Origin: Akanthomyces muscarius
Taxonomy: Eukaryota; Ascomycota; Sordariomycetes; Hypocreales; Cordycipitaceae
DNA length: 64,000 nt
Direction: 5' to 3'
NCBI RefSeq assembly: GCF_028009165.1
Contig: NW_026611618.1
Location: 496,001-560,000, forward strand
The notes below the pieces were generated by a model. It was given only the letters and a program-made list of their open reading frames with translations. It was not told the origin of the DNA and made no database searches. The translations under genes and the position numbers were made by a program. Positions 28,865-62,662 of the stretch are shown here, piece after piece (the first letter of the stretch is position 1; each line of letters starts with the position of its first letter).

Positions 28865-30495
28865 ATGAGCACGCCGGTTAACCGGTTCAATAGAAAAAAA
28901 GTCGCCATCGTCGGCAGCGGCTGTTCCGGCATCGCAGCACTGTGGGCGCTCAACCGCACATACCACGATGTCCATCTGTACGAAGCCGCAGATCGCCTTG
29001 GCGGTCACACAAATACCGTGCAATGGAGCGCCGGCAAGTTCAAGACGGCAGTCGATACTGGCTTCATCGTCTTGAACACGGCTACCTACCGTAAGTGCTG
29101 CCGCTGTCGCTCATCGCATGCCCACACCCGCCGCTACCTCGAATGCTAAAGTGCGCGATAGCCAACTTCATCAACTTCCTCAGCAAGGTGGGAGTAGAGA
29201 CGGAACCCACAGACATGACGTTTGGCGTTACGCGCGACCAGGGCGCCTTTGAATGGGCCGGCACAAGTCTCAATGCCGTCTTCACTCAGCGACGACGCAT
29301 CTTCTCCCCGCGCATGTGGCGCATGATCTTTGACATTGTGCGCTTCAACCAGTTTGCCCTCGACCTCCTCATTCACGACGAAAAAGACTCTTCCGACCGC
29401 CACCGCAACTTCTCCACCAAGCGCGTGGACCAGAACGAGACCATCGGCACCTATCTGACCCGCGAGGGCTATTCCGACGCCTTCCGAGATGATTATTTGC
29501 TTCCCATGGCCGCGGCCGTCTGGAGTACCAGCCCCGACAAGTGTGGTCTCGACTTCCCCGCCATTGCGTTGGTGCGATTCATGTGGAACCACCATCTGCT
29601 GACGACAGTATCTGAGCGACCTCAATGGCTCACCATCAAGGAAGGCGCCCAGGCATACATCCAAGCCGTCATGAAGGGATTCCCGCCAAACCACCTCCAT
29701 CTCAACACCGCTGTGCGCCAAATCGCCAACAGCGCCGATGGCCGCGTGCTGCTGAGCCTGGAAGATGGCAACACCGAAGTGTTCGACCACGTCATCCTGG
29801 CGACCCACGGCGACGAAGCGCTCGCACTCCTCGGGCCCTCTGCCACGGAAAAGGAGCGAGCCGTTCTCTCATGCTTCCAGACTTCGCAGAACGAGGCCGT
29901 GCTGCACTCGGACACCAACTTCATGCCGCGCAACACCCGGGCCTGGGCGGCTTGGAACTACCTGACCATGTCCTCACCCTCGACCGGCAAGGCCAACATC
30001 GACAAGGTGTCGCTCACCTACAACATGAACATCCTGCAGCACATCCCGCAAGATCCCTTTGGCGATGTTCTCGTCACCCTGAATCCCCTCCAGCGCCCGC
30101 GCCAGGCGACCGTCCAGGGCCGATTCTTCTACTCGCACCCGCTGTACACGCCCGGCGCCTTCCGTGCCCAAAAGGAGCTGCCGCACATCCAAAACAAGCG
30201 CGGAATCAGCTACGCGGGTGCTTGGACAAACTACGGCTTCCACGAGGACGGTTTCAGCAGCGGCCTAGCCGTCGCGCAGAAGCACCTCGGTGCCAAGCTG
30301 CCTTTTGAGTTCAAGGACTCGACGTACAGCAGAGGCCGGAGGCCGCAGCTGGGCTTGGCGGACTACGTTTTGCGATTTTTCATCTTACTCATCCAACTCT
30401 TTATTGTATTGACAATTGACCGGTTTTCGTCTGTTAGTAAGAGACGGAGTGTGCTAAATGGCACGGCCAAGTCCTACAAGAAGAAGCACAACTGA
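28865..30495 (+). CDS. FAD/NAD-binding amine-oxidase-like protein with C-terminal membrane anchor
   Basis: Exons 28865-29090 and 29162-30495 join in phase 1 to 519 aa; the intron is 71 nt with GTAAGT..TAG ends. The N-terminus has the FAD Rossmann motif ([17 protein letters not shown]) with the acidic strand end and the second glycine motif ([14 protein letters not shown]), which mark the flavin amine oxidase/desaturase superfamily. Further conserved blocks are [14 protein letters not shown]-like [20 protein letters not shown], and the C-terminal FAD block [21 protein letters not shown] hydrophobic segment near the C-terminus ([17 protein letters not shown]) suggests tail anchoring. This resembles the broad 'predicted NAD/FAD-binding protein' group linked in bacteria to lipid or cyclopropane metabolism. 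The substrate is unknown. Confidence 0.87.
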
Positions 30496-45517: not shown

Positions 45518-48500
45518 ATGCCGCCGCTCAGGTTCTACGAGGACCTCGCCAAGGCGCAGAGCAGCGAAATAATCAGAGTCTCTGACATAGCCCACGGTGA
45601 TGACTCTGGTGCCCTCAAATTTACCTACCATCACGAAACTCTCTCGGGGCCTGTAACCATCCACATGATGGCCCATGGTGAGCGCAGCCGATCCTTCCCC
45701 CACGCCACCAGTCGGCTGATATGTGCGGCACAGATTGCATGTCTTATCCAAGGAATTCGGGCTTCATCGTCTTTTCAGAGTTCGACAATGCGGACAATGA
45801 TTTCACCCGCTGCCTTGATGCTGTTTGCGAGAAGCAAAAGTGGATCAACATTGGAGAGGCCGTCCGCACTATTTCAGTAGCAATCACGGCCGCTATTGAG
45901 AAGCGTAATGTCGACGTCGAAGATGACCCCGAGGACTCTCCGTGGGATGACGGAAGCGATTTTGAGGAGCTGGATCCTATGGAGATCTCCAGCAACGATG
46001 GCGACCGTCGACCCAGACCCGATCAATATATCGGCGTTGTCCTGACCGACGACGCCAAGACCTTGACCGACCTAAGATCCTCTCTGCGAAAGGCCCAAAA
46101 TTCAGGAATAACTGTCGGTATATATCCCAGATTCGGAAGTAAATTACCCGAAATCATTTCCCTTTCCGCACCCGCCTCGTCTCTTGGCGTTGCCAACGGC
46201 ATTTTGGAATCGTGGGGCCTCAAAGAATCCGACAACTTGGTTCTGCTTGTCAAAATCGGCGGCTTATACCCGAGCCTGGACGAATTTACCAATCTTTCCA
46301 GCCGACAAACAGTCTTGCAGTTTCGATTTGGTAAATGCGTGGGCGAAAAGCCCTCGCTGGTGTCAGTCCAATCTGCCTATCGCAACACAAGGCACTTTTT
46401 CCCAGATGACGACGAGATTGAATCCGCCGGCGCTGACGAGGCCCAATTTCCATTCGAGCTTATCAACATGTCCAACTCAATAGACAAACTATTGAATGCT
46501 GATTTTATGAGGCTGCTCGGAACCAGAAGAAACCACAAACTCTCTTGGCCAAATGCCCAGCAGATTGTCTCGCGACTGGAGCTGCAATCAGCAGGCGGCA
46601 ATGTTTTTGCCGAAGACATCAATGTTGAGGTTTTGAGCATGCAAGTCGACCATATTCCCTGGCAGAGTCTTGTAGGCCCAATTTCCCAGGATGGCGCACT
46701 AGATGACGCAAAATCATTTAGCCTGCCCCTGGTCGCGATGCAGCTCGCCCTACATCGACTCGCAAACTGCACGCGCTACTGCATGGTATGCAACGCATGC
46801 CTGAATCAGGGCTACTCAGCTTTGAAACCCTATGTGTGCTCCAACTCTCTTTGCTTGTTCCAGTACCTGTCACTTGGCCTTGGATCAAGTATTGAGCACG
46901 AAATCATCAACGCCCCCTACGTCGTGGACATGCTGATATGCTTCCTGTACGCCGCACTTGCCAACTTTACCGCTCGTGAGATGCCGGATGGGCTTAGCAT
47001 CAAAACAGCCTATGTGGACGATGATTGGGCTCATGGATCCTACGTCGCCGCAATCGCGGACATGGAAATGATGAAATTACGGGACCTCGACTATTCGATA
47101 TTGAAGGCGAAGAACCCAGGAAAATCTTACGGTGACGCTTTGCGCGAAGGAGACCGTATCCTGATTATCCACCGAGAGCCTGACTGCGATTCGCACATGG
47201 ACTTGGTCGTAAAGTCGTGGTGTCGGCTCGTAGCATTTGTGGATGGAGAGTGGACGTTTGAGCGCCACCATTTTTCCGAATCAAAAAGAAACCCAAAGCC
47301 ACTGCAGCCCGACTCAAAGCCTCATGAACTGTCCAGCGAACCAATCAAGGGAATGGGACAGGGAAATTGGCGCCAAGTGCACTTGTTTGGCTACTGGCAG
47401 AATATCGATGAATTTGCCCTTGACCGGCGAAGACTCGCGTTGCTTACTATTCTCGACGGGCTGCCCCCAGTACTCGACATGCGGAAATATCTGTTGGCCC
47501 AGCCTGGAAGGCGGCTGTCGACTTGGAATCGCATCAATTCTCCCGAGTTGGCAGTATTGAACTGGACTGTGGCTTCGAATCGATCATTGATTGTCCAAGA
47601 CGATATTGTGGCTGACAAAGACATGCAAGACGCATCCTCCAGCAAGGCCTGGAATAAAATCTGCACATCGGAGCACCCCCAGCAAATCAAACAACCATGG
47701 ATGCAGTTTCGATTCCTTCAAGGCTCGCCGGAGATGGAGCAGAAATTCGAGTACAAAGCGAGTCAGATGCTGGAAACGACAAAAACGCCTACAATTTTTG
47801 CCTGGCATGGAAGCCGGCTGAAAAATTGGCACAGCATCATCCGAACAGGGCTAGACTTTTCCAGCGTTGAAAATGGTCGAGCGTGCGGCAATGGAGTCTA
47901 CTTTAGCCATGACATGATTACCAGCCTCGGCTACAGCGGAGGCGGCCTGCTAGGAGACCAGACGAATGTGGTAAGCCTTTCCACAAACATCTCATCAGTC
48001 TGTAGGATCACGAACCAACTAACAGTCCCGGCAGATTGGCCACTGGGCTAAGTCGGAACTTCAAATAAGTTCCGCGATTGCCGTTTGTGAGCTCATAAAC
48101 TCACCCGACGAGTTCGTCTGCAACAATCCGCATTATGTCGTTGATGCATTACACTGGATCCAGTGCCGTTATCTGCTGGTGTCAATCAATCCGACCACGA
48201 AAGCAAAGGAACTTCCTTTTTACGAGCCTCAGAGCAACGAAACCCCCGCGTATGTGTTGCAAGATGGCAATAACCCTATCAAAGTCGGTAAAAAACTTGT
48301 CGAAATACCCATCGTGGCCATTCCGTTCGATCGACGTGCTCGACAGAGCAAAGAGCCCTCACAAGCATCAGCAGTCGCGACAAAAGCTCGGTCACCAGAA
48401 ATTACCACGCCACTGAAATGCAACTACGATACGGATGACATTGATTTGTACCTCGGCTTTATTGACGTGGACGACGGGGTAGTTTCACCCACAATGAAAC

Positions 48501-49231
48501 GACGCGGGTCGTCGACCCCCTCAGATCTTTCGTCGCTCTCTCAGTTTTCAAATAAGCGAGCGAAAGCCGCGGACGGCCGAGTGATCCGAGCCCAGACACG
48601 CAATCCATCCGGTTTTGATCCGCAGGGACTCAAAATGGAATCGCTCCGCCTGCTTGCGGCGCCGACGTGGGCCGCGACGTCGAAGCAGGCTGTCCGCCGC
48701 CTAACGATGGACCTCAAGGATCTGCACCGCCGACAGACCACCTTGGGAGACTTGTCATCGGGATACTACGTGCACACAGACAAGAGCGACAATATGTTTC
48801 AGTGGATTGTCGAGCTCTTTGACTTTGACGCCGCGCTGCCGCTCGCCGGCGACATGACGGCGTTAGGCTGCGCCAGCATCGTCCTCGAGTTTCGCTTTGG
48901 CCCCAGCTATCCAATGTCGCCACCCTTTGTGCGCGTCGTCCGCCCGCAGTTTGTGCCTTTTATGCAGGGCGGCGGCGGGCACGTCACCGCTGGCGGCGCC
49001 GTTTGCCTCGAGCTCCTGACCAACTCGGGCTGGAACCCGGCCATCAACATTGACAATGTGATTATGCAGATTCGCGCGGCGATTGGCGAGCCGGACCGGC
49101 CCGCGAGACTGCAAAAGGGCGTCTACAAAGTGGACTATGGGATCGGAGAGGCGGTCGCGGCATTTACGAGACTGGCGAATGCACATGGCTGGCAGGTGCC
49201 CGAGGACTTTCAGCATATTGCGATGCTGTGA
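45518..49231 (+). CDS. PARP6/8-like ADP-ribosyltransferase fused to a UBE2Q-like ubiquitin-conjugating (E2) domain
   Basis: Exons 45518-45677, 45734-47970 and 48035-49231 join in phase (1, 0) to 1197 aa; introns are 56 and 64 nt. Residues ~400-450 carry a Cys-rich PARP6/8-type element (CMVCNACLNQ, LKPYVCSNSLCLFQYLSLG, then APYVVDMLICFLYAALA). The ART domain spans ~720-850: the donor loop His in IFAWHGSRLKNW (H744), the Tyr in GNGVYFSHD (Y776), and the third-strand motif NNPHYVVDALHW. There the position of the polymerising Glu is occupied by His832, so mono-ADP-ribosylation is expected. A basic, Ser-rich linker (KRRGSSTPSD, NKRAKAADGR) may hold a nuclear signal. Residues ~1015-1190 form the E2 fold, with YPMSPPFVRVVRP and the active-site Cys1123 in GGAVCLELLTNSGWNPA, closest to UBE2Q. 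Such fusions are, to my knowledge, known in filamentous fungi, but their biology is not. Confidence 0.92.
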
Positions 49232-50213: not shown

Positions 50214-51581
50214 TCAGTCGTGCTGGAACAAAACGCTAATGGACTCGCCGTGGTGGACACGACGAATAGCTTCGGCGAAGACGGCGCTGATGTCCAGCAC
50301 CTCGAGCTTGGGGCAGAGACGGCAGTGCTCAGTCTGAGGCACCGAGTTGGTGACGAGGATCTTGTCAATCGCCGAGGCGTTGATGCGGGCAATGGCGTCG
50401 CCGCTGAAGACACCGTGGGTTAGCAGGGCATACACCTTGACGGCGCCCTCACGCTTGAGCAGCTTGGCAGCGCGGGTGATGGTGTTGGCCGTGTCACCGA
50501 GATCGTCGACCAAGATGCAGATGCGGTTGGCGACGTCACCAACGAGCATCATGCTGGCGTTGCGTTGCTCGGTGAACTTGATCGGTCGGCGCTCCTAGAG
50601 GGCATGTGAGTTTCCATGGCAGCAAGCAGCGGCAGTTCATGTTACCTTGTGAATGAGAGCAAAGTCCATGTTCAGACTGTCGGCAATGGCCGTGGCACGC
50701 TTGGCACCTCCGGCATCCGGCGAGACAACGACGGCCTCCTTATAGCCGGGGATGTACTGCCGGATGTAATTTTGTAGCAGGGGCTTTCCGTAGAGGTTGT
50801 CGACGGGAATGTCGAAGAAGCCCTGGTATTGGGGGTCGTGGAGGTCCATGGTGATGATGTGATCGGCGCCAGCGCACGTGAGCAGGTCGGCAACGAGCGT
50901 ACCGGCCTGAGCAACCCACTGCTTATAGCCTGGCTTGGCGTGAAAGGTATTGACGATGCTGGGCTTCTCGTAGTCGTGGGTGGTGAAGCTGCGCTGCGAA
51001 GAGACGGAACCTTCGGTGGTGTGGCCACGAGCGTGGGAAGCCAGGCTGGCGGCGCTGTCAACGCGCTTGGAGGGAGTGGCGTGGTCGGCGCCTTCGGGCT
51101 TATCCTCCAAGATGCTGTTCTTAGCAAGCTTCTCAGCAAGGCTGTTGACGCCGTTGTTGAGGCCACTGCTCTTGGGCCCACCCGGGCGCGGCGTCGCAGG
51201 GACGCTCTCAAAGGTGTAATCTTGTTTGCTCCCATTCTCGTGGGACCGTGATAGAGGGGCGCCGGACTTGTTGTAGGGCCAGTCGGGCTGACGAGAGTAG
51301 GGAAACAGAGGGACGACTGCAGTGACACGCTTGGCAGAACCAGTCTTGCAGGCCGAGATCATGATGCAGAGGTCAATGAGGTTGTCATTGACGTTGCCGG
51401 AACCAGACTGAACAATGTAGACATCCTTGCCACGGACCGAGTCCTTGATCTCACAGCGGCTTTCACCACCTGAGAATTTGCTAAGGATGCGGTTACCGGG
51501 AGGAATGCAGAGGATGTTGCCAATGTTGTCGGTCAGCTCGGGGTGGGAGTTGCCGCCGAGGAGGACAATGTTGCGGACCAT
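50214..51581 (-). CDS. Ribose-phosphate pyrophosphokinase (PRPP synthetase) with internal insertion
   Basis: Exons on the minus strand 51581-50646 and 50594-50214 join in phase 0 to 438 aa; the intron is 51 nt. It starts at [16 protein letters not shown]. Active-site blocks are complete: GGNSHPEL and [22 protein letters not shown] (ATP-flag region), [33 protein letters not shown], and the PRPP loop [17 protein letters not shown]. An insertion of about 115 residues (positions ~102-217, Ser/Lys-rich, [18 protein letters not shown] onward) interrupts the fold, as in the Prs1/Prs5 type of yeast, where such non-homologous regions link the enzyme to cell-wall-integrity signalling. It makes PRPP for nucleotides, His and Trp in the cytosol. 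The start is chosen at 51581 because upstream residues are not conserved in type. Confidence 0.95.
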
Positions 51582-54306
51582 GGCTGTTCGAGGGCGAGAT
51601 CGGTCGATGAGTCGATTGTCGACTGTTTGCTGATACAACGAGATGGTCGAAGAAATTGACAGCAGAGAAAAAAACTATCAACCAATTGCCTTGTGCGTCA
51701 AATTGAGCGACAGACGAAGAGACTGCGGGGTGGTGATGACGCAACGTCAAAGCGAGCGGTTTAGCTATGCCGAGGGTCAACTTTTTTTTTTAGCCTGCGT
51801 CGCACCGGTTACGGACCAGAAGCAGGCACGCGAGCGCGATGACAGAAGAAAGAAAAAGAGAGGGAAAAAAAATCGTCGCAGTTGGCAAGCTTGGTCAAGA
51901 CCAGCAGGCGCAGCGGGATAGCGTGAAGCGTAGAGGGATGGAGGGCCTGTATCAAAGCAGCATCGTGATGGATAGGAAAGGATGAAAAATCCGGAGAGTC
52001 AAAGGGCAGGCCGGCTAGAGCAAGGCGAGGCCTGAGTCAAGGTTTGAGGTGAGTTGCGGTGCGGTGCGGTACTGCTTCCGTCCCCCGCCGCTCTCCACTG
52101 TAAAAAAAAAAAAGCTGCAGGTGGAGGGAGGTGCAGGTGCGGTTACGGCTACGGCTGCCATGCTTGGTGGGGTAAAATGCAGATGCTGCATGGCTAGGTA
52201 CCTACGCACCTTTACACCGGTTTTTATTAGGCGGTGCGCCATTGGCGGTTGGCGCCGCAGTAGCCATGTCTCTAGCGGTTCTTTATGCAAGGCCGTTTCG
52301 ATAGGTGGCTGTTGGCTTTTTACAAATAAATTAAACTAGATGCTATACACCACATCATGTGCCACAGAATCAATGGGTCGACGTGCTGCCTCTGTCCAAT
52401 TTCTCAGTCTCGGCCAGACTGAACAGAGAAGAGAGACGGGTCGTAAGGAGCATGCGCGAGTAAAACTGCAGGCTCTGCGTCACCCCGAAGCCCTCTGAGA
52501 TCTCGTTGCGTCCGCCAAGGGAGTGTAGCCCGCTGTCATGAAGAAGAGGTCAGCTGCGACTCGCCATATGTCGTCGGCTGTGTACACTTTTGGTATTACC
52601 AGCGACTTGTGCCGCAGGAGCCGTCTTTTATATAATTGAAAGACAACGCCTAACCGTGTAATAAACCTGGTATACACGGAGGACAAGTGAAACTCCAGAG
52701 CCAAGTATACCGGAAATGGCTAGCCAATCACCGACATCTAACTGCGAGGCGTGGCTAGCATCTACACGGACCTAAGTTAACCAACTAGCGGCTTGTGGGA
52801 GAAGCGGAGCACGGCGCCGTAGGAGGGGAGGATCGTGCCCGACGGCGCTGCTCGCTGGTAGAGCAATTTCCGAGTTCATAATGCCATGACATGCGCCCGT
52901 ATCGCAATGCACTAGCCGAACCTCGATGTCGCTACGGGACATGGCCGTAAATATTCTCAAAGAATTTTGAATATTCCCAGAGATCCTACGTCTGCCTCTA
53001 CTAACGTTAGTATATACACGAAACACCGTGTTTTTGGTCGAGGTTGCTGTCCGTTAAGCATAAAGTGCCGCTGAATATTTCTTTTTCGTCTGAAGATGTG
53101 CCTCCGCAGCTAAGCACTGCGCCGCTGTGAGTGGCAGGATGCTGGCTTTAAGTATTGAGGTGGCAATTGCACTTTGAAAATCTGTCGAGTAGTTTTCCAA
53201 GGAAAAAATGGGCTCTAATTTCATCAAGATGGCCTGTAGAGCTAGAGGTGTACACATAGCCCTGTCATCTATCATATCGAGATTTCGGCAGCGGTGCTTT
53301 GATAATGCGCCTCTTCCAGTACGCGTTGCTCTAAAGATGCGCTGGTGCGCCGTAGGCCATCAGGATACAATTGGAAGAGTCAAGCTCCGAGAGACTGTAT
53401 CAGGACAAAATAAGTCACGGACCCTTTTCCCCGACCTTCTTTCTCATATAACACAAGACAACAAGCCTAGAATAATGCAATAGTCACAGTAGTATTTAGC
53501 ACTATGAACATAAATTAAAACATATACTAGTGTGGGCCGCGGGGCCAGCCGCGATGTACCAGGCATGACTATGTAAAAAAGGCAGATTCAGCACGATGAC
53601 ACGCGCATGACATCCCAGGAAAGAGTATGAGGGCCTTCAGCGGCAAGAGTCTAATGATTGGTTTTGAATTCCTGTTGCTCAGATTGTCAGGGCCTATCCC
53701 TGGGGCTCCCGAGGGGCAGCACCTCCGGCCACTGTAACCACTAACAGTCTCTACCTGGAGGTACATAAAATAAGGCATTTGCGACGTGTTGAATTTGGTA
53801 AACTCGATGTCTTCTAGTATTGATCTACATCAAATATACTTCTATTTTTGGTGAGAACCAAATTTTACAGAAAGTAAGGGTAGCTTCCGGAGGTATGTCC
53901 GGGCCTTGACGTTCGAGTGGAGAAAGAGGGCCGATGCACAGTCTGTGAGTGCACCACTCTTAGTCGACTTTCGAAATCTTGTAGCAGATAAAAAAACTCT
54001 TCCTCCAACAAAACATTGACGCTGCTATCTAATGCAACCGTCATTACATTCGATGATGGTATCGTTACACATGTTGGAGGGTCTTTGTTGTGACTCATAC
54101 AGGTGGTAGGGTTTCTCTGCACATTCCATGGAGCATATATATATCGTGTGAAATTACTTTGGCCGTATTCTAGATGCAATACATATCAGCGCGATTGTAT
54201 ATTGAGCAGGTTGCCTCAATTTCTCACAAATTCAAGCACAAGGCTTACCGTTTCACCGCGGACATCGTTCCACTTTCAAAGAGGAGGGCAATAAATTTGC
54301 TCGAGA
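51582..54306. other. Long intergenic region (2.7 kb)
   Basis: The right-hand part is AT-rich and has minus-strand open frames (52480-52704, 53054-53275) whose peptides look partly protein-like (for example ENYSTDFQSAIATSILKA). I could not assemble them into a gene. A short GGTGC tandem patch lies near 52056-52072. These could be remnants of a decayed gene. Confidence 0.4.
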
Positions 54307-57927: not shown

Positions 57928-58162
57928 ATCTGGCGCATGGTGTAAAGTTTGGCTCTCGACCTCCCAACGGCGTGCCGAGAGATAAGGCCGGCCGCCCGCC
58001 GATAATGACTTTTCGCGGGACGCTAACCTCGATCAGCCACAACCACTCAGAACTCACCACTCAAGCCCCGGTTTTAGCCTCTAGAGCCCTGCATCAAGTT
58101 TCTTTCCAATGAGAGGGATACACTAAAAGAGAGAGGTTTCTAGGATATCGTTAAATGTTTTT

Positions 58163-59959
58163 ATGAAGCCCTTTTGGCGGGCAAAGAGGCCGAGTTGCTG
58201 CGCTGAAGCCGTCGCTCGAGTCACAAGCACGCCGCGGGCCTGCGCAGGTTTTTCAACCACCCCGCCAGCGGCATATCTCAAGGCCAAGACCAAATCGTTG
58301 AAGAAGATGGATCCCACCAACTACAACAGCTGGACCAAGCTCGGTCTCGTCGAGCGCGTCCGTCAACTAGAGGCCGAGCTGCAACGGAGACCAGCAGCCC
58401 CGGAGCCCGCGCCGCAAAATGGAGATGTAGAGGCAGCATCGCCCCCTGGGACGACAAAGCCCAAGGTCAAGCGCAAGATGGACCCGTCCAAGTACTCTAC
58501 CCGCTTCATTGCGCTGAAGCTGGCCTATCTGGGCAAGAATTACGGAGGATTCGAGTTCCAGGCCATGGGCAACCAGCCTACCATTGAGGAGGAGCTTTGG
58601 AATGCCCTGACAAAGGCTTGCCTCATCTTCCCGGAGGATGAGAAGATTGTCGACTTTAACATTTGCGAATACTCCAAGTGCGGACGGACGGACAGAGGAG
58701 TCAGCGCATTTGGGCAAGTCATTGGCATTCGTGTCAGGAGCAACAAGCCGTTGCCAAAGGAGCCCGAGCAGACCACAGCAGAGGACACCGAGGAGGGACA
58801 AACGGAAGAACAGGAGCCAGAAGTAAAGAAAAAACCATTCGACCCGATTGCAGACGAGATTCCCTACCCCATGGTTCTCAACAGAATACTGCCGCCGGAC
58901 ATCAGAATCCTGGCCTGGTGCCCCTCACCACCACCAGACTTTTCAGCCCGCTTCTCCTGCCGCGAGCGCCAGTACCGATATTTCTTCACGCAACCTGCCT
59001 TTTCGCCCGAGCCCTCGGCCGCTGGCGGAGGCGCCGCGTCTGGCTGGCTCGACATTGAAGCCATGCGCGACGCGGCGAAGCGCTTCGAGGGAGAGCAGGA
59101 CTTTCGCAACGTCTGCAAGGTCGACCCTGCCAAACTCATCACCAACTGGTCGCGCACCATCTTCGAGTCGGACATTGTCGAGGTCCAGGACGTCGCCGCC
59201 GCGCTGCCCTACATCACCGCCGCGGGCTTTTCGCCGGCCGATTTCCAAGGAGACGAGAAGAGCTTCCCCAAGGTGTACTATTTCCACGTCCGCGGCTCGG
59301 CGTTCTTGTGGCACCAGATCCGGCACATGGTCGCGGTGCTGTTCCTCGTCGGGCAGCGGTTCGAGAAGCCGTCCATTGTGACGGAGCTGCTCGACGTAGG
59401 CAAGTACCCGCGCAAGCCGGGATACACCATGGCCGACGAGGTGCCGCTCGTGCTGTGGGACTGCGTCTTTCCAGATCTCACCCAGGCGGACGAGACGCCG
59501 CTGTCAGCAAGCAATACACACGTCGACACCATGCAGTGGATCTACGCCGGCGCTGAAAACTCGTCCAAAATGCGCTCGGGTCAGTTTGGCCCGTTTGGCG
59601 CCCTGGACGGCATGTGGAAGGTGTGGCGCGGGCACAAGATGGACGAGCTGCTGGCCAGCCAGCTGCTCCAGCTCATGGCGGAGCAGGCCGGCAGTGGTAG
59701 CAGCACCGAGGTAGCTTCCACCGAAGAGACTAAGAAGCCACAGTCGAATAAGAAGTCGGCGCAGAGCGTGCGGCTATATGAAGGCGGCAACACGGGACGG
59801 CCGGCGGGCAAGTATGTGCCGATGGAGAAGAAGGATAAGCTCGAGTCGCCGGACGAGCTGAATGACAAGTATGCTCGTCGCAAGGGGTTTGTAGATGCGG
59901 CGGATATGCGTGCCAGACGCAACGAAGGCAAAGACACCGTCATGCAGAATGACGAATAA
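58163..59959 (+). CDS. DEG1: tRNA pseudouridine(38/39) synthase Deg1/Pus3
   Basis: A single exon of 598 aa. The TruA-type fold starts around residue 110 with FIALKLAYLGKNYGGFEFQA. The catalytic Asp is D177 in YSKCGRTDRGVSAFGQV. Later blocks include SFPKVYYFHVRGSAFLWHQI, RHMVAVLFLVG and VDTMQWIYAG. A coiled-coil-like N-terminal part (GLVERVRQLEAELQRR) and the KKMDPTNYNSW start match Pus3/Deg1 rather than Pus1. The enzyme makes pseudouridine at positions 38 and 39 of many tRNAs. The first 48 residues are basic and Ala/Ser-rich, so the 58163 start may add a mitochondrial presequence, and the ATG for MDPTNYNSW (residue 49) may serve the cytosolic form. Dual start use is inference. Confidence 0.93.
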   Translation: MKPFWRAKRPSCCAEAVARVTSTPRACAGFSTTPPAAYLKAKTKSLKKMDPTNYNSWTKLGLVERVRQLEAELQRRPAAPEPAPQNGDVEAASPPGTTKPKVKRKMDPSKYSTRFIALKLAYLGKNYGGFEFQAMGNQPTIEEELWNALTKACLIFPEDEKIVDFNICEYSKCGRTDRGVSAFGQVIGIRVRSNKPLPKEPEQTTAEDTEEGQTEEQEPEVKKKPFDPIADEIPYPMVLNRILPPDIRILAWCPSPPPDFSARFSCRERQYRYFFTQPAFSPEPSAAGGGAASGWLDIEAMRDAAKRFEGEQDFRNVCKVDPAKLITNWSRTIFESDIVEVQDVAAALPYITAAGFSPADFQGDEKSFPKVYYFHVRGSAFLWHQIRHMVAVLFLVGQRFEKPSIVTELLDVGKYPRKPGYTMADEVPLVLWDCVFPDLTQADETPLSASNTHVDTMQWIYAGAENSSKMRSGQFGPFGALDGMWKVWRGHKMDELLASQLLQLMAEQAGSGSSTEVASTEETKKPQSNKKSAQSVRLYEGGNTGRPAGKYVPMEKKDKLESPDELNDKYARRKGFVDAADMRARRNEGKDTVMQNDE

Positions 59960-60107: not shown

Positions 60108-60794
60108 TTATAGAATCGGCGTCTTCTCATCCCTTTTCTCATACAAACACTCCCTCGCGCCTCGCCAAACCGCCTCCACGATGCGCCGTCTCGGCAGCAG
60201 ACCCGGAAACACCACCACCAGGTCCTCCTCGCCCTCGACCACCACAATCAGATAATACCTGACCTCGAACCCCCGAAACGCCTCATTCACCAGTATATCG
60301 CGAATCTTTTCCGTGGGGATGAACCTCGTCGCCGCGCTCGCAAAGTAGCTCGGCGCGCTCTCGCGCGTCTGCACGCCCAGCCCGCGCATGACCAGCAAGC
60401 TCTCCTCGGCGTACACCCGGCGCGAGAGTGTCCGCAGCGCGAGCGCAGCCCCGGGAAGGAGGATGACGAGCGGGATCGAGGCGGAGAAGTGGCGGAGGGA
60501 TGTTCCCGTGGAGGAGCGGTGCAGGGCGTCGAGAGCCCAGAGGAGCGTGTCGGCGGTGAAGAGATCGTGCGGGAGGGTGAGGGGCAGGGCGGGCGCGGGG
60601 GAGGAGTACGGCGAGAGGGACCAGCGCGCTTCGAGGAGGAGGATGGTGAGGATGGAGAGGAGGATGCGCAGGACGAGGAGGAGGAAGCGCAGGAGACGCA
60701 GGGCGACCGTGGATGGTGGTTGGGTGGTGACGGTGAATTCGGTGGTTGTGGGCGAGGGACGCCGGATTTGGAGACGGGGCAGTGTGGTGAGCAT
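60108..60794 (-). CDS. GPI15: GPI-GlcNAc transferase subunit Gpi15 (PIG-H)
   Basis: A single exon of 228 aa. Two hydrophobic hairpin segments lie at about residues 30-55 (RLLRFLLLVLRILLSILTIL) and 105-125. The PIG-H domain follows: EESLLVMRGLGVQTRESAPS, FIPTEKIRDILVNEAFRGFE, VRYYLIVVVEGEEDLVVVFP and PRRRIVEAVWRGARECLYE. Gpi15 is part of the GPI-GnT complex at the ER that starts GPI-anchor synthesis. Length fits fungal members. The 3' end is about 150 bp from the convergent Pus3 gene. Confidence 0.92.
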   Translation of the reverse strand: MLTTLPRLQIRRPSPTTTEFTVTTQPPSTVALRLLRFLLLVLRILLSILTILLLEARWSLSPYSSPAPALPLTLPHDLFTADTLLWALDALHRSSTGTSLRHFSASIPLVILLPGAALALRTLSRRVYAEESLLVMRGLGVQTRESAPSYFASAATRFIPTEKIRDILVNEAFRGFEVRYYLIVVVEGEEDLVVVFPGLLPRRRIVEAVWRGARECLYEKRDEKTPIL

Positions 60795-62662
60795 GATGAA
60801 GGCTCGGATTTTGGTGGAGGATATTTAGAAAGGGATCATGTCGTTGTTGTATAAGCAGTGGTGAAGACGGAGGTGCCAATTAAAGCTCCAGCTGGCGGTC
60901 GGTTCTGGTAGCAAAATAAAGCGGGGAGCTGTCATGAGGAGGTGCCAGTACACCGGCTCATCTGGCAGCCGAGATATGGCTTTGAAAAATATGAAGAAAT
61001 AAAACTCCGCTGTTTGGAGACTCGTGCAAAGACAATAAATTTTGAAAGAGAAACTCGGGCCTCAAAAAAGGGTGCTCTCGACAAGCCAGCGTTCTTTTGC
61101 CAGCGCTCCATTCAGTGGGGCCACTGTACCTATATAGACCAAAATAACGCGGCCAAATGTCGGCTGTAATGGCTCAACTGGGAAAGCTCTCGTCCTTTTC
61201 TCGTCTTGCAACCGCACCAAACACCGTCAGATCCCTCTCTGCTGGCGCCCAGCCCGAACGCCGCGGTGGCCGCCCGCTCGCATGGGCAACCTGCGACCGT
61301 CGGTACACAGGCAGTTTACGCTGCCCGCGGCCCTCAGCATTGGAGATGACCCTTGAGGGAGGTTTCACTCTGCAGAGAACTCTCCCCCGTCGCGTGGCGG
61401 GCTGGATTACGACCCGGAGGGGAATTTTGGGCTGGTTGTGTGAGAAAGAGAATTCAACCAATTTCTTTTTTTGCTTGGCGCGTTAATTATTAAATGACAT
61501 TCGAGGATTGAGTCGTGTATTTTTTTTAATGTTGATTGAGTCGCGGTGAAGGTGAAAAATTGTTTTTATCTTGCTAATGCTTGGATTCGAACCCCTCTTG
61601 GAACGAGCGCTGCTGAGTAGTGCGCACCTCTACGCTTCGCCTGAGGGCGCTGCTGTCTAGAATCTAGAACAGCTATAGCACGTTGAAAGCGATTACCTTT
61701 TAATATCTGTTTGACGCCGTAATACCCTCTTATCCTGGAAATATAGAGACTTTGCCTATGTGGTTAATGCTGTCTCTAGTATGCCAACTATTAGACCGGG
61801 CTGGAGTCCTCGCACGCAAGCTTATATAAGCCACTTCCTAGGACACACAAGTCGAAAGAAGCGGACCTCAATTCCAGACGCCGAGCCACTATGACGCTCT
61901 TATCCCACATCTACGTCTACTAGCAATTGAGAACAGTTCCTAGACTGCTTGTGGGCCACAACGAGCAGGCTGCGCGCGTGGATGCACTCACACAGACCTT
62001 GTGGCGAAAATGGGATGCCAACGGTACCACGACTTAGAGCACGTAGATTGTGTCATGTCATTGAGCCTGAGCCTCAGCAAAAGGGAGGCGTACCCGCGCC
62101 AATTTTGCCCCTGTATAATGAGCCAGGCGCGCATAGCGAAGCTTGTAAGCTTGTAAGGTAAGAGAGAAAGAGGGCCTCTACGAGACCTGACGCGCTATCG
62201 AACATACTACACGAGCCGCCGAATGACAGTAAGTAGGATACGAAATGGAACGACCCCTCTCCCCCCAAATAAGCAGTTAAGGGGGACGAGCTAGAATATG
62301 GACGAAGACAATTTTGTTCAGTTCCATTCATCATAAAACCATTTGTGAGTTGTGAATTTGGCTACCGACGCACCTGCGCGCGTTGGCCTCGAGCAACCAC
62401 GACGAAGGAGTGCCGATGTGGCACAGGAAGCTATGGGCTCTCTGGATGTATTTTTTGCCTGGTTCTCTTGATCGTCTTGAGCTCGTGTTTGGGCTTCGCG
62501 GATTTCACATATGAATGAGTAACTGAGTGAGCTTCTACTGTTCGACTAATATAGAAGCATTCTAGTTTGAGGCTGAGCATATGCTGCAGGGGGTTGCCTG
62601 CATGAGGCTGAGTAGGACACCGCCATTAGAAAGATTTCTTGCACCTTACATCCTCATGTGCC
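60795..62662. other. Intergenic region upstream of the NLR gene
   Basis: This 1.9-kb interval was checked for a gene. An open frame 61171-61485 begins with a presequence-like MAQLGKLSSFSRLATAPNTV but degenerates and has no partner exons. The minus strand around 61575-61660 has a tRNA-type B-box (GGTTCGAATCC) without a foldable cloverleaf. Confidence 0.45.

Follow-up and report, generated by a model that had tools for sequence, protein, structure and literature searches.

A UBE2Q-like ubiquitin-conjugating domain joined to a PARP6/8/16-type ADP-ribosyltransferase in Akanthomyces muscarius and its relatives, and a possible coupling of the two chemistries

Fungal proteins that carry a PARP catalytic domain and a ubiquitin-conjugating (E2) domain in one chain have been described twice. 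Citarella & Teotia (2010) named the architecture Clade 6A, with an FPE, a PARP and a UBCc domain, and noted that the E2 cysteine is present (PMC2964712). Perina (2014) reported the PARP-UBCc architecture in Ascomycota and extended it to Basidiomycota, the moss Physcomitrella and the green alga Chlamydomonas (PMC4245714); for the basidiomycete, moss and algal cases that paper is the source here. The PARP-E2 architecture is therefore not new, having been published in 2010 and 2014. Here I analyse one such gene, at positions 45518-49231 of the forward strand of a 64,000-nucleotide stretch (the window) of the Akanthomyces muscarius genome, and ask what its two halves might do together.

The chain joins a PARP6/8/16-type (Clade 6) ADP-ribosyltransferase (ART) to a UBE2Q-like E2 and shares with Clade 6A a PARP catalytic domain and a C-terminal UBCc domain with its catalytic cysteine in a single polypeptide. 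The PARP domain of the Clade 6A fungal PARPs lacks the glutamate, as here, and their N-terminus is an FPE (RWD-like) domain, to which the RWD-like layout of the present N-terminus may correspond. No structural difference between them and this chain was seen; the 2010 paper, in the text available, names no UBE2Q type and no hydroxyl or ADP-ribose chemistry (PMC2964712). The PARP6/8 homologues with UBCc of the 2014 paper have the same Cys-rich motif, PARP and UBCc domains (PMC4245714). In the present chain the helical extension also carries a beta-rich insert. Human PARP6, PARP8 and PARP16 combine a helical extension with an ART that lacks the glutamate, as here, and PARP6 and PARP8 also share the C4 zinc finger and have RWD-type domains, which may have counterparts in this chain, but in the available text of Suskiewicz (2023) no E2 domain is described for these human proteins (PMC10450202). 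In public records some of these proteins already bear a UBE2Q name ('ubiquitin-conjugating enzyme E2 Q2'), and annotation has thus picked up the bare likeness. Other public names of relatives are misleading, such as 'ubiquitin-like modifier hub1' or 'putative membrane protein' (P0084, P0103). What this analysis appears to add to the printed record is an E2 of UBE2Q-like kind with an equivalent of His409, the joint conservation of both active sites, and a proposal for how they may be coupled.

Relatives were taken as top-ranked matches (the best 120 of 772 and, with divergent seeds, the best 120 of 585), which gave 224 distinct sequences including the window's own protein, P0001; P0001 and 215 relatives, 216 sequences of at least 1000 amino acids, were aligned and eight shorter ones were excluded. 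The ART residues His745 and Tyr776 and the E2 residues Cys1123, His1183 and Trp1185 occur all together in 216 of 216, and these five belong to the 36 positions of 1197 that are strictly invariant in an alignment with a median pairwise identity of 0.39 (1500 random pairs). When the E2 segment alone served as query, Cys1123, His1183 and Trp1185 were present in all of the best 120 of 388 matches and His1115 in 115 (4 Asn, 1 Tyr). A crude test of site placement that takes no account of phylogeny gave 0.0022 for finding the four E2 sites among those E2 columns in which 210 or more letters agree (46 of 207), and 0.039 for the two ART sites among 40 of 200 ART columns. The recognised genera are mostly Sordariomycetes and Leotiomycetes, one relative, P0057, comes from Trichoderma reesei QM6a, a laboratory fungus, and the matches bear out the expectation of an earlier note on this DNA that the architecture occurs in other Pezizomycotina. 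The protein is an intact, and probably a bifunctional, enzyme, and I consider it rather likely that both domains are active.

That note had also read the locus as a single-chain gene, and the alternative, that gene prediction wrongly fused two adjoining genes, is hardly credible. The spliced frame on the forward strand consists of three exons (45518-45677, 45734-47970 and 48035-49231), encodes 1197 amino acids with one stop at its end (49229-49231), and is identical to P0001, which is annotated as an uncharacterised protein of A. muscarius (Cordycipitaceae). The two predicted introns are short and have GT and AG edges. Intron 1 (45678-45733, 56 nucleotides) is crossed without a gap by the alignments of P0003, P0004, P0005 and P0007, and P0002 has an insert at the junction; intron 2 (47971-48034, 64 nucleotides) falls, by the spliced frame and the alignment of relatives, within an ART-domain loop whose length varies. 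Because exon 3 runs through the ART-E2 junction in one open frame (48023-49231), the fusion is independent of both introns, and on this ground I rejected a mis-joining of separate ART and E2 genes. The 215 relatives of at least 1000 amino acids, each of which combines the ART and the E2 active-site residues in a single chain, speak against such an artefact as well.

The E2 domain comprises residues 1010-1197 (48665-49228, forward strand) and is delimited by Pfam, by sequence and structural alignments and by conservation. Its best match, by sequence and by structure alike, is UBE2Q1/2; the E2 fold is common to this domain and human UBE2Q1 and UBE2Q2 (2qgx, 1zuo), at 36-39% identity in structural alignments, and they share the cysteine in a GGA-x-C motif, the lack of HPN, His409 and, by motif, Trp414. 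The literal HPN motif occurs in 0 of 216 aligned sequences in columns 1105-1123. Cys1123 (49004-49006), which the earlier note had picked as the active cysteine, faces Cys106 of the 2qgx chain, taken as Cys351 of UBE2Q1 (offset 245), and is invariant. His1183 (49184-49186) aligns with His164 of that chain, which is His409 of UBE2Q1, in a stretch (1154-1183) free of gaps; this residue, opposite 362, is also where the structural alignment with UBE2Q2 (1zuo_A) stops. His1115 (48980-48982) aligns with Tyr98, which is Tyr343 of UBE2Q1, in a block that runs from 1112 on and is separated from the 1154-1183 block by a single two-residue gap. Trp1185 (49190-49192) is paired with Trp414 of UBE2Q1 by a W-x2-P motif only, W414 and P417 being among the published mutants. 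Thus, of the three UBE2Q1 residues, His409 has a clear and invariant counterpart, Trp414 is matched by motif only and Tyr343 differs, and the fungal site reads as His-His-Trp in the alignments against Tyr-His-Trp in UBE2Q1. Because histidine stands where UBE2Q1 has Tyr343, I call the domain UBE2Q-like and do not file it as UBE2Q; the human enzymes also differ in that they stand alone, whereas this one is fused to an ART.

Human UBE2Q1/2 attach ubiquitin to serine, threonine, glycerol and glucose, are less reactive towards lysine and lack HPN, and in UBE2Q1 Tyr343, His409 and Trp414 are required for discharge of ubiquitin, not for its loading (PMC10971424). A catalytic histidine recurs among known hydroxyl-ubiquitylating active sites (PMC7615817). 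By analogy with UBE2Q1, the fungal E2 is somewhat more likely than not to be directed at hydroxyls. Six relatives (P0255, P0299, P0304, P0313, P0317 and P0320) have asparagine at the position of His1115, presumably the position of the HPN asparagine in canonical E2s, and offer a natural comparison for lysine versus hydroxyl preference.

The ART core occupies residues 701-852 (47674-48193, forward strand, split by intron 2), as placed by Pfam, sequence and structural alignments and conservation; here and in the E2, these same lines of evidence uphold the domain calls of the earlier note. That note rightly saw an active-site histidine and Tyr776 (47899-47901) and misnumbered the former, which is His745 (47806-47808) and not His744. 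It was also right that the third-position glutamate is missing: the position, His832 (48131-48133), holds His in 95 sequences, Cys in 40, Tyr in 39, Phe in 33, Ile in 6, Thr in 1 and a gap in 2, with Glu in 0 of 216. With such variation among relatives, His832 as a specific catalytic substitute is not upheld. The same variation (H, C, Y, F, I, T), and the absence of the glutamate from Clade 6 proteins at large (PMC2964712), would suit a non-catalytic ART half that senses or scaffolds NAD+ or ADP-ribose and leaves the work to the E2. This I consider unlikely, since none of the 216 sequences departs from His745, Gly746, Ser747, Arg769, Gly774 or Tyr776, as expected for an NAD+-using site, and human PARP6, PARP8 and PARP16 fall in ranges named mono-ARTs (PMC12377720).

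How might the two activities be connected? In the explanation that I favour, the Clade 6 ART would use NAD+ to place a single ADP-ribose on a protein, either itself or another; E1 would load ubiquitin on Cys1123; and the UBE2Q-like E2 would discharge it onto a hydroxyl, aided by His1183 and probably by His1115. With the two active sites in a single polypeptide, the acceptor would most likely be the ADP-ribose just attached by the ART of the same protein, and the product a ubiquitin ester on mono-ADP-ribose (MARUbylation), formed with no Deltex-type E3. The chemistry has precedent: the 3' hydroxyl of ADP-ribose is where Deltex E3s attach ubiquitin as an ester (PMC7615817), and cells contain mono-ADP-ribosyl-ubiquitin (PMC12000418). 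Deltex enzymes resemble the proposed one in the catalytic histidine and the predicted product (PMC7615817, PMC12000418), but they are RING-DTC E3s that work with a separate E2, and this chain has no DTC match in Pfam. The transfer of ubiquitin to ADP-ribose had been raised in the earlier note as one possibility, and it gains indirect support from the UBE2Q-like character of the E2, since the human UBE2Q enzymes ubiquitylate hydroxyls. As a whole, a bifunctional ART-E2 with ubiquitin esterified to ADP-ribose is a tentative explanation that falls short of probable, and the ester itself, whose acceptor is deduced from the arrangement of the domains only, is possible at about that level or slightly below.

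Several observations weigh against this explanation. The variable third ART position is compatible with mono-transfer and equally with a weak or inactive ART. At the position of Tyr343 the fungal sequences have histidine in 210 of 216 and asparagine in 6, and in the available text on UBE2Q1 Tyr343Phe is tolerated and no histidine variant is named (PMC10971424). His1115 may have been retained from a canonical E2 site, because the 2010 paper marks a histidine near the cysteine as common to typical UBCc domains (PMC2964712). Trp1185 lies beyond the tool alignments, which end at 1183-1184, and the spacing from His to Trp is 2 as opposed to 5 in UBE2Q1. The acceptor need not be ADP-ribose, because UBE2Q1 acts on several hydroxyl compounds, and the term ADP-ribose is absent from that paper (PMC10971424). 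A long, mostly disordered linker stands between the two active sites. Finally, decayed members would be under-represented in top-ranked samples, and the eight excluded shorter sequences carry, in precomputed Pfam annotation, PARP only in six, UQ_con only in one and both in one. The single-domain sequences (P0011 with UQ_con; P0008, P0012-P0015 and P0106 with PARP) are probably partial gene models.

The linker and the breadth of UBE2Q1, which accepts serine and threonine, with threonine preferred, besides several hydroxyl compounds (PMC10971424), would also fit a chain in which both enzymes work and leave two separate marks on a shared client or complex, mono-ADP-ribose on the one hand and ubiquitin on Ser/Thr or Lys on the other, the fusion serving only to deliver them together. 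The extra N-terminal domains could hold such a putative client. Co-delivery by itself, however, leaves unexplained why the partner should be specifically UBE2Q-like; I regard it as a doubtful but serious contender. The retention of both active sites in a single chain would also allow regulation in cis, in which modification of ubiquitin or of the E2 domain by the ART switches the E2 off or on, with NAD+ gating ubiquitin transfer, but nothing in the sequence points to such regulation and it seems improbable.

Related enzymes were also sought in the same genome (36.2 Mb in 12 contigs, with the window on contig C11). A search with the E2 segment found no other UBE2Q-type E2, only the protein itself and a canonical E2 (33% identity) among 3 candidates scored; the genome holds 29 exon-level UQ_con matches, which were not individually typed, and the search could have missed a UBE2Q gene that is heavily split or divergent. 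No DTC domain match was found in the genome either, although no control genome gave a match, so that absence is not established. In the chain itself neither RING nor DTC is among the Pfam matches with E up to 1, and among 14 relatives a RING/U-box match (E 0.67) appears in one. One other PARP locus was found (L001, G000:C3:4834220-4834954), with WGR and PARP regulatory domains, and a single macrodomain match (L033, G000:C10:45256-45588, Macro E 9.7e-43), which makes the latter protein a candidate eraser of mono-ADP-ribose.

Residues 1-113 (45518-45912), in the model's secondary structure, form a domain of one helix, four strands and two helices, an RWD-like layout that would be part of the published FPE domain. 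Pfam matched no RWD domain in the chain's N-terminal part; among 14 relatives, four gave a weak RWD match (best E 0.0028, position unlisted). An acidic stretch follows at residues 114-153 (45913-46032; 16 D/E versus 3 K/R), disordered with pLDDT (the model's per-residue confidence) below 50, and then a second domain, residues 155-400 (46036-46773), possibly with a degenerate E2-like fold, for which the split RWD of PARP6/8 may be compared. UBE2Q2 is the sole E2 among the matches listed for this domain, and a short stretch of it is similar to the chain's own E2; it is possibly a decayed E2 copy. The Cys-rich element of PARP6/8 type that the earlier note had recognised is confirmed as a C4 zinc-finger-like element (46780-46854): Cys403, Cys406, Cys422 and Cys427 are kept in 216, 214, 213 and 214 of the 216 sequences, and their 2-15-4 spacing fits the PARP6/8 motif CX2CX9-19CX4C (PMC4245714). 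A helical extension as in PARP16 (residues 432-667, 46867-47574) adjoins the ART and contains the beta-rich insert, residues 491-606 (47044-47391). All these features lie on the forward strand, as does the linker, residues 901-990 (48338-48607), which by pLDDT and residue counts is mostly disordered and of mixed charge; its description as basic does not hold across relatives, whose median net charge is -8 (216 sequences). Recruitment of a substrate or of partners is the probable role of the Cys-rich element and the N-terminal domains.

The adjoining gene on the reverse strand (50637-51674) encodes a ribose-phosphate pyrophosphokinase (Pribosyltran_N E 2.7e-31), an enzyme whose product feeds NAD+ synthesis. 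Elsewhere in the window are genes for a flavin amine oxidoreductase (29095-30495, forward), a tRNA pseudouridine synthase (58127-59959, forward) and the PIG-H subunit of GPI-GlcNAc transferase (60108-60824, reverse).

Fusion of two proteins in one lineage hints that their counterparts are partners in another, the Rosetta-stone argument, and by this reasoning PARP6/8 may cooperate with UBE2Q1/2 in animals as functional partners. Because UBE2Q1 is itself made up of an RWD domain and a UBC domain (PMC10951314), the fungal chain resembles PARP8 and UBE2Q in one piece. In the literature covered, which excludes subscription papers and preprints, I found no proposal of a UBE2Q reading of the fungal E2, of coupling to ADP-ribose or of a PARP6/8-UBE2Q partnership. 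A 2025 review of the dual mark calls the E2-like folds of PARP6/8 'enigmatic', with roles still undescribed, and in the text available fung-, UBE2Q and PARP8 go unmentioned (PMC12687431). The fullest version of the proposal, a one-protein MARUbylating machine with a histidine-based E2 site and no Deltex E3, together with a human PARP6/PARP8-UBE2Q1/UBE2Q2 partnership that makes the same product, is speculative and on balance unlikely. Nevertheless, a natural fusion in which every full-length sequence aligned retains both active sites allows the ART, the E2 and their product to be tested in one tube. If ubiquitin is indeed esterified to ADP-ribose, there would be a second enzymatic route, in filamentous fungi, to a modification linked in the papers cited here to Deltex E3s and animal PARPs, and a rationale would follow for the ubiquitin-related folds of PARP6/8.

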